Source of the DNA: Lepisosteus oculatus
Taxonomy: Eukaryota; Chordata; Actinopteri; Semionotiformes; Lepisosteidae
Length of the DNA stretch: 64,000 nt
Direction: 5' to 3'
Assembly: GCF_040954835.1 (NCBI RefSeq)
Contig: NC_090703.1
Location: 13,573,001-13,637,000 of the forward strand
The notes below the pieces were generated by a model. That model made no database searches, was not told the DNA's origin, and saw nothing but the letters and a program-made list of their open reading frames with translations. Positions 49,001 through 52,000 of the stretch are shown here, one piece after another. Within the stretch, counting starts at the first letter, position 1, and every line of letters begins with the position of its first letter. The position numbers and the translations under genes are program-made.

Positions 49001-52000
49001 GCCATCTTAATGTAAACGTGAATCATAATACTGGTTTTCATAGACAATGGACAATGTTTTTAATTTATAACGCATTCCGCTAGTGAAAGCGGTTAGTCTA
49101 CATAAGTCTGTGGTTTCTGCATTAGGGCTAGTCATGACATTTTCTGAAATGCTGCCCATCAGGGTGCTGGAATTTGAAAAGTGGTCGTTTTTCAGGAATA
49201 ACCACTTGAGCAGAGTTAGCCCACCACTCTATTGGATTCTGTTTTGTCCTGCAAAAACTGTGTGTAAAAACATATCTGTGTGCTTACAAACATGAACATT
49301 TAAAAATAAAGAGATCAGCTGGAATAGCCTTCGTATTTAGACAATTTATTATTTTTCAGAAGCTTGTAGTTTTAAAGACTGGTTTTAAGAAACAAATTTG
49401 TGGCCATGCTAAATATGTACATTTAGGGAAAGAGGCCTTTCTTTGACTATTTGCTGTAAATTGATTGATTTCCTATATCTTTGATTTTGTTGTCACCCTG
49501 CTGTAGCCTTTGAGAGCCAAGAACAGTGGACTTGGCCAACTGCACCGCTAGAAATATTGAGGACAGTCCCTCCTCGATAAAAGACAATGGACAGCAATAA
49601 CACTTTAAGAAATAATAATTGGAGAACATTAATGAATGCAATTAGCCATGGCAGCAGTTAAGTTTTGTGCTTTCCTGTGAGTTATCACAACCAGGCAGCT
49701 TTAACTAGAAAATAGCAGGGGAAAAAAGATAACTGCCCTCATACTGCCCTTTTTTGTGGACTGTCTAATCAAATTGCTGTTGACATTTGAATGGAGACGC
49801 AGAGAGGGGGAGAATCCCTAGGAGGCAGACCTCAAGTATTTAACTGTTGAGGAGCTCATGGCAGCTCGTGCAGCAGATGCCTTTTTGCTTTGTGAGTGTT
49901 GTCTAGCCCATCCTCAGGCTTGAGCAGGTGATAATATCCATCCCTCTGGCACTGCCCAGATTCACTGTAACTTCTTCACAGGCTGTTGATCACAAGGCTT
50001 GATACCCCTACTGCACATGAGCCCTAGAAAAGGCTGCTGCAGCTTCTCTAACTCACAAGATACTCTTATTTTATAAGGCCTGAGCAAATTTACAGCTGGA
50101 ACACAAGCAAAAAATACCTAATAATAAACTGAGGTGAAAATACTCTTAGGGAGACCTTTTGTGTTCTACGGCATTAATAGGACTGTGCAGAGATACAATA
50201 TTTTTAATTAAATGAGATGTAAAAATGTTTATTACACAACTGGCACAATATGCTTAATTATTTTTCATACAGGTTTTTTTTCTGAACAAGTAAAAAATAG
50301 TAATGTGCCAGTTTTTTTTTCTATCGGTACAATTGGTTTACGTTGATGTAACAAAGGTGAATTTGTAATTTTTCTTTCCCTCAACTTTATTGCTTCATAT
50401 TTTAACATAAAATGGGAGAACACATAAAAAGGGAATAGGAAATAAGCATTTAAAAAGCACTTTATTACACTGGCATCCATAGAAACATAGTGGAGAGTTA
50501 GAACTGTATTGTAATTACTAGTATTAGTATTGTAATTCTGCTTAGAGAACTGATGAACTGTGAAGTAGATTCTAGATTATGCATGTTACACAGGCTTTCT
50601 GAGCTTAACTGTAAAAAAGAGACTCTGCTCTACTTTCTAAGCTCTCTAAATCTCAATAAGCAGACAGGTTCAGTTACGTTCTTCCCGTGCATCTCATATC
50701 CCATTAATAGGGAAGGTTTCCCCTTGAACGTGTTTTCGTGTTTTCCAGGTGTCGATTGGATATTTGGCCAACAGAAAGGTGATACAGTAGGTGTCAGCAA
50801 GCTGGCCAGGTAACGAGATGTGGCTGTGGCCTGTACGTGCTTAATCACATACAGGCCTTCTGACCTCAACTAACTCCCTCCCCACCCCCACCAAATAGGC
50901 AGTAGGTGCTATCCCTTCCAGTTTTGATCTGCAGGTGTTCCCATGGAACCTACCGTGCATTTTCCTTACCCTGTACACAAGCACATGTGCCATTAGTAAA
51001 TTAATAAACTACAAGTAAGAGGTCCACCCTTTTTCAGTGCGGTAACTTCTGCTTTTAGAAATCGGACTTGTTACTGATCACAGGTGCCTTATGGGATGTG
51101 AGAGACATGGGTATCTAGGAACTTTCAGGGTGTCTTTGACAGCTGCGAATGACATTATGATTCAAACTGTGCATTTAAACAGCTTGGACTGCATGATGTA
51201 AATAGAAGGTAGTTCAGTGCTTATCTTAAGATCTGGTCACCCCTTCAACTTTTACTTTCTGGTTGGCTGCTCAACCTGTGCAAATGCTATACAGTATATC
51301 CCTGAATTGTGCCAACCTTGTAGGACAAAGTGGAAGGATTTGTGTGGTCTAGGTATGTACAATATATACAGTAAATGGGTGACAAGGATTTCATATAACC
51401 ACACGTTTCATTTAAGCTTGAAAATAGTTTTTTTTCAGAGCTGGTGGTTCCCCAGACATGGTAAATTCTGTTTTTTGTAGGATCAGTCTGCACCATGATT
51501 ATTAGCACCTCGATAAATCCTTCTAATTGCTAGTGAGCACTGAAGACAAGCCAGTAACTTGTTCCTATTAGAAAAACCTTCCCTGAACACTGCAGTAGAA
51601 ATTAAAGAAAACAAGTGATTGTGTATCATATAAAGTTACCATTTAAAAGGAGGGATATTGATAGAAATGGCTGCTCTGACTTTAGGCTCGAAATGACAGC
51701 TGAGGCAGCACTAGATAAGCTAAAACATTAATCCAATGCAGATTTTTTGAGAACCGAACACCTTTAAGACCACGGAACACGAATAAAGACTGAAGCAATT
51801 TGAGAAAACATTTCCCCAGTTGTTTCTCCTGCTTCTCCTCTGAGATGTGATATTGGCAGCATTTTCATCCAGTCTCTCTGAAAGCTTTGTGTTCAAATAT
51901 ATTGTTAGTCCTTCCCTGAAGAGCTACTGTAAGTGTCTCTCATTCTTCCCCCTGGTGCCTCCGTTAAGCTGGCCCTATATCTTTCCTTGTGTCCTACAGG

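Follow-up and report, generated by a model that had tools for sequence, protein, structure and literature searches.

GCH1 exon 3 duplicated in tandem in Lepisosteus oculatus, the copy frame-broken but with good splice sites: a candidate former alternative exon in decay

What is an exon-like block doing inside an intron of GCH1, if it resembles the gene's own exon 3, is bordered by splice signals, and would end the protein early when spliced in? The window, by which we mean the whole stretch of 64,000 nt of Lepisosteus oculatus that was analysed (NC_090703.1, positions 13,573,001 to 13,637,000), carries on its + strand a complete GCH1 gene, whose six coding exons, joined in a transcript model, give an open 259-residue protein. 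GCH1 is described as rate-limiting for pteridine synthesis, and it is tied to fish skin colour (PMC7815744). The exons and the block, in window coordinates, are:

40035–40404 (+): GCH1 exon 1, from the first in-frame ATG (transcript model; PF01227, E 1.7e-8)
46948–47057 (+): GCH1 exon 2, 110 nt (transcript model)
50749–50809 (+): ghost exon 3, 61 nt, duplicated in tandem from GCH1 exon 3 and carrying a 5-nt insertion (40/56 identity with one 5-nt gap; shuffles)
50782–50789 (+): stretch holding the 5-nt insertion, for which four placements are equally good (gapped alignment)
52000–52055 (+): GCH1 exon 3, 56 nt, intact, source copy of the ghost (transcript model)
53626–53657 (+): GCH1 exon 4, 32 nt (transcript model)
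55259–55343 (+): GCH1 exon 5, 85 nt (transcript model)
55599–55725 (+): GCH1 exon 6, coding part (transcript model)

The ghost is a tandem duplicate of exon 3. It reads tccag/GTGTCGATTGG...CTGGCCAG/gtaacg across its borders, and exon 3 reads tacag/GTGCACATAGG...CTGGCCAG/gtacgt. The initial annotation had placed an AG- and GT-bordered 61-base block at 50749–50809, some 1.25 kb upstream of exon 3 and matching it at about 37 of 50 positions; the coordinates are exact, exon 3 starts 1251 nt downstream of the ghost start, and the best gapped alignment has 40 of 56 positions identical with a single 5-nt insertion. The local alignment runs through both splice signals, from 11 nt 5′ of the exon to 3 nt 3′ of it. 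A comparison with random expectation had also been proposed, and it bears the homology out: exon 3 with 10-nt flanks scores 23 against the ghost, whereas the maximum is 19 both in 150 dinucleotide-shuffled windows (0/150) and in 1000 shuffled intron-2 sequences (0/1000), and the same query reaches at best 14 (+ strand) and 15 (− strand) in the real window outside the ghost. Exon 3 alone scores 16, which 3 of 150 shuffled 64-kb windows reach, so the significance rests on exon and splice signals jointly. When the two are compared directly (73 vs 68 nt), the score is 145, and no shuffle scores above 62 (0/300). With the insertion set aside, 13 of 19 residues are as in exon 3 and the ghost shows no further stop. 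Same-strand homology to the neighbouring exon and matching splice borders, the marks of a tandem duplicated exon, are thus both present. The last 16 exon nucleotides are identical in the two copies (P 0.0015 for random scatter); gene conversion of the ghost 3′ end is a possible cause, which we did not adopt because codon and splice constraint could also account for it.

The duplication is detectable over the exon and its signals. Homology is lacking in the approximately 300 nt that flank the ghost and exon 3 on each side (147/300 and 140/300 shuffles score as well), and a duplicated 1.25-kb unit, sought downstream and upstream, is not detectable (equalled by 21/100 and 74/100 shuffles). Relics of exons 1, 2, 4, 5, and 6, sought on both strands, gave top second matches of 13–17 (unshuffled scores), with no partner suggesting a multi-exon duplication, which was rejected. 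A protein search of the 1.2-Gb assembly (813 contigs, E ≤ 10) returned 11 matches: five exons at GCH1 itself (C8), five on C17, and one on C22 at chance level (E 8.2). The C17 matches belong to a second, compact, gch2-like GCH gene in the same genome (C17:13339887-13347193). The 9.9 kb of this locus hold no ghost, the best ghost match outside its exon 3 scoring 12, about the mean of 10.4 that the exon-3 query gives in shuffled intron 2.

The splice signals of the ghost, and what its inclusion would do, were scored next to those of the constitutive exons, with approximate matrices, on which all site ranks depend:

50729–50748 (+): ghost 3′ splice signal, pyrimidine tract and AG (score 11.3; rank 23 of 4137 AG sites on the window + strand)
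50807–50815 (+): ghost 5′ splice site CAG/GTAACG (score 7.95; rank 46 of 3797 GT sites on the window + strand)
50788–50790 (+): in-frame TAG if exon 2 is joined to the block (transcript model)
50776–50784 (+): alternative 5′ splice site AAG/GTGATA, giving a 30-nt in-frame exon (score 6.02; exon 5 scores 5.22 and exon 4 7.16)

By these matrices, each ghost site is the top-scoring of its kind within intron 2, and the ghost is the only pair of such quality 30–200 nt apart in that intron; the whole window has five such pairs on the + strand and three on the − strand, exon 3 and the ghost included. The ghost sites outscore their counterparts in certain constitutive GCH1 exons (exon 5: 7.8 for the 3′ site, 5.2 for the 5′ site). 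Sites of such quality argue against a long-dead exon.

Both the five-base frame break and the TAG at 50788–50790 that had been read from the block are there, and the predicted end of the protein about 13 residues after exon 2 agrees with the transcript model, in which 13 residues are followed by the stop, to give a 173-residue protein that lacks the product of exons 4–6. With exon 3 skipped, the model places exon junctions 19, 51, and 136 nt beyond the ghost stop; with both ghost and exon 3 included, they lie 19, 75, 107, and 192 nt beyond it. Nonsense-mediated decay (NMD) follows, as a rule, where a junction is more than 50–55 nt downstream of the stop (PMC6547761), and because the furthest junctions lie 136 or 192 nt past it, NMD is predicted for ghost-including transcripts. 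A frame shift or an in-frame stop in a homologous exon is one mark of a pseudo-exon, and the ghost has both. The stop with such a junction beyond it, together with splice sites that appear usable by the approximate matrices, would also suit a poison exon. As assembled, the block does not fit a living mutually exclusive exon, being 61 rather than 56 nt long and carrying the TAG at 50788.

Was the ghost ever translated? Compared pairwise, ghost and exon 3 give BLOSUM P values of 0.0002–0.004 (0.02–0.4% of random scatters), identity P values of 0.01–0.026, and an NG86 dN/dS ratio of 0.32, a value not exceeded in 137 of 2217 stop-free simulations (783 of 3000 had been dropped for stops or failure). 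As evidence on the ghost itself these tests were set aside, because changes on the constrained exon-3 branch are mixed in, and they were replaced by a test of the ghost branch, with changes polarised by a third sequence, the gch2-like paralogue on C17 (VHIGYLPSKKVVGLSKLAR). Over codon positions 1/2/3, the ghost-only changes number 4/2/3, the exon-3-only changes 0/1/3, and the paralogue-only changes 0/1/6; at three sites all three sequences differ. The ghost-branch test gives a BLOSUM P of 0.008–0.037 and a borderline identity P of 0.033–0.075, based on 12 changes in 56 nt, of which three are at the all-differ sites, and with the placement of the 5-nt insertion chosen to fit. Between the ghost branch and the other branches, nonsynonymous and synonymous counts show no significant contrast (Fisher P 0.16 or 0.065, depending on how one codon is counted). 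Synonymous change had been taken in the initial annotation as the sign of a coding past; this was partly misplaced because several such changes fell on the exon-3 branch, but the ghost-branch BLOSUM result still favours some constraint.

The residues themselves point to a later loosening. Three replacements in the ghost, His to Ser, Pro to Ala, and Leu to Val, remove residues that none of 80 bacterial relatives varies, whereas its Lys/Arg, Arg/Lys, and Leu/Ile replacements are found among the same bacterial GCH1s; the 80 are the best of at least 553 confirmed sequences and mostly cyanobacterial by title, and so cover only part of GCH1 diversity. The ghost was probably under some modest coding constraint, relaxed afterwards, and the loss of the three invariant residues suggests that the relaxation came before the frame break.

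The age of the copy was approached through the missing flank homology. Duplicated flanks were simulated (150 trials per setting), counting trials in which neither 300-nt flank scored above 100 (84 and 81 in the real sequence); the share of such trials was 1%, 27%, and 75% at 0.6, 0.8, and 1.0 substitutions per site, respectively, so that homology becomes undetectable at about 0.8–1.0 substitutions per site. At a flank divergence of 1.0, a neutral ghost branch would be expected to show ≈20 differences in 56 positions, against the 12 inferred. The probability of 12 or fewer changes under neutrality is 0.35, 0.077, 0.012, and 0.0005 at divergences of 0.6, 0.8, 1.0, and 1.3, respectively, so that at 0.8 or 0.6 neutrality is not rejected by the exon count; the probability of keeping both splice sites this good is 0.008, 0.004, and 0.001 at 0.8, 1.0, and 1.3, respectively, and 0.07 and 0.02 at neutral branch lengths of 0.2 and 0.3. 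These tests assume that the intron was included in the duplication, and let the present exon 3 sites stand for the ancestral ones. Given an intron-inclusive duplication, exon and splice sites together show fewer changes than neutrality from the outset would lead one to expect; the ghost was therefore probably kept as a spliced exon for most of the time since it arose, and a phase of full neutrality, if there was one, probably lasted less than about 0.2–0.3 substitutions per site. Among invertebrate tandem exon duplications that are spliced in a mutually exclusive way, the majority carried the upstream intron too (PMC5224494), while an exon-sized duplication would weaken the argument.

We favour the reading, at a probability of roughly 0.58, that the ghost is a former alternative exon 3 that is now a decaying pseudo-exon and mostly skipped. 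An old tandem duplication would have created the upstream copy, which would have been spliced through a large share of its existence and translated for part of that time, one exon 3 or the other being used since both together break the frame. Protein constraint on the copy would then have slackened, letting the invariant His, Pro, and Leu be replaced, before the 5-nt insertion shut the reading frame. Today the block would be a well-sited pseudo-exon with presumably low inclusion, and such transcripts as include it, ending after 173 residues, would be lost to NMD and lower GCH1 output slightly and without regulation. What the initial annotation had called a former second exon 3 keeps its footing in the homology, the frame break, the premature stop, and the truncation before the last exons. 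That the two were once mutually exclusive, as it also held, is plausible because 56 nt is 3n + 2, so that double inclusion shifts the frame, the same logic as is documented in U2AF1 (PMC6547761, PMC5224494). RNA pairing that might force such exclusion was looked for between the flanks and rejected, 15 of 15 pairs falling within |z| 1.5 of shuffles.

The main rival, which we regard as possible but doubtful, is a working poison exon: the frame would have been lost, the duplicate retained, and regulated inclusion would now tune GCH1 mRNA through NMD. The splice sites unmatched in intron 2, the junctions more than 55 nt beyond the stop in both inclusion forms, and the nearly even 4/2/3 spread of ghost-only changes, as expected if splicing rather than coding was kept, all speak for it, as does the suggestion that a duplicated U2AF1 exon serves as a poison exon (PMC6547761). 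The ghost-branch test leans the other way, towards past coding constraint, and the flanks have no excess RNA pairing. Also counted against it is the dose sensitivity of GCH1 in people, where heterozygous loss of function leads to dopa-responsive dystonia (PMC8356262); unregulated inclusion would be costly for that reason. Where dose matters, one would expect an exon that has lost its frame but kept good sites to be under repression or regulation, or to have been broken only recently. Rather more speculative, and to our mind unlikely, is a history in which an earlier mutually exclusive exon 3 pair made two enzyme forms, and one copy lost its frame here to become an NMD switch setting GCH1 dose; relatives may in that case still have both exon 3 forms, and the enzyme that limits the rate of pteridine and tetrahydrobiopterin synthesis would have had two versions.

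It is improbable that the exon is still alive, with the 5-nt insertion reflecting an assembly error or a polymorphism of recent origin, and with an open exon 3a in other individuals. There is only one frame lesion, no further stop appears once it is set aside, and the splice sites are undamaged, but the loss of three residues invariant in all 80 bacterial sequences suggests earlier relaxation. Less probable still is a block that has been neutral ever since a small, exon-sized duplication, its good splice sites a matter of luck: flanks without homology and the near-even changes across codon positions would suit it, while the retention of the splice sites (P 0.07–0.02 at a neutral branch length of 0.2–0.3), a match that stops at the splice signals, and the habit of most invertebrate mutually exclusive tandem duplications of taking the upstream intron (PMC5224494) oppose it. 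We give hardly any credence to a 30-nt in-frame exon, 50749–50778, ending AAG/GTGATA and spliced before exon 3, for which the transcript model is open over 269 residues and the 5′ site (6.02) exceeds that of constitutive exon 5 (5.22), because the downstream 5′ site is stronger (7.95) and the insert would repeat the stretch adjoining the zinc-binding CEHH motif and may not fold.

The closest known system is exons Ab and 3 of U2AF1, which are tandem duplicated, mutually exclusive, and NMD-coupled. Like the GCH1 pair they are short, side by side, and not a multiple of three in length (67 nt, against 56 nt originally in GCH1), are 68.2% alike (40/56 for ghost and exon 3), and yield a stop on double inclusion (PMC6547761 and PMC5224494); they differ in that both are expressed and kept through vertebrate evolution (PMC5224494), while the ghost is frame-broken and known from sequence alone. 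Pseudo-exons of mutually exclusive clusters, for instance in Drosophila Dscam with an in-frame stop, likewise have a frame shift and stop beside an intact copy, but are described as also lacking correct splice sites (PMC3228551), whereas the ghost, a lone second copy, retains good ones, which counts against the pseudo-exon reading. Unannotated tandem exon duplications, too, are intron sequences homologous to a neighbouring exon; they were sought by similarity and are backed by RNA-seq, unlike the ghost, and its identity is lower, at 71% (PMC9013439; the same source cites a 2002 survey by which ~10% of animal genes hold tandem duplicated exons). The 20N poison exon of SCN1A is similarly a cryptic exon whose inclusion is predicted to harm the transcript, but is called evolutionarily conserved (PMC7790302), whereas the ghost has been seen in one genome. 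A literature search for a duplicated GCH1 exon found none: GCH1 goes unmentioned in the main text of PMC9741552, PMC9013439, PMC6547761, PMC5740500, and PMC4465641, and PMC7815744, in the passages searched, does not link gch1 to an exclusive exon. Should the exon be open in relatives, GCH1 had a second isoform that can now be assayed; should it be closed there, the ghost would be a clean example of how an alternative exon can be lost through its reading frame and yet keep its splice sites.

Elsewhere in the window, a single large open exon at 17326–18597 (+) is SOCS4/5-like and encodes SOCS, SH2, and SOCS-box domains. Part of the WD40 domain of WDHD1 lies at 22.9–23.3 kb (E 3.6e-13; 49.8 bits, below the curated whole-domain cut-off of 109.9). 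The window looks like the standard vertebrate GCH1 locus, since SOCS4, WDHD1, and GCH1 are neighbours in human too. Within the gene, a stretch of intron 2 at approximately 47525–47795 resembles, by eye, a tRNA-derived SINE, and intron 4 ends in TCAAG (55254–55258), a 3′ site that scores 7.8 by the approximate matrix and is weaker than that of the ghost (11.3). The SOCS4/5-like exon is overlapped on the opposite strand by a 462-residue open frame (17347–18732) with no Pfam match at E 0.01. A search of the whole window with Rfam, which gave no match in the ghost block, returned a single hit, upstream of the SOCS4/5-like exon at 16744–16860 (+): a 5S rRNA-like sequence (RF00001, 57.7 bits, model positions 1–120 of 120), either a solitary 5S copy or a repeat of 5S origin.
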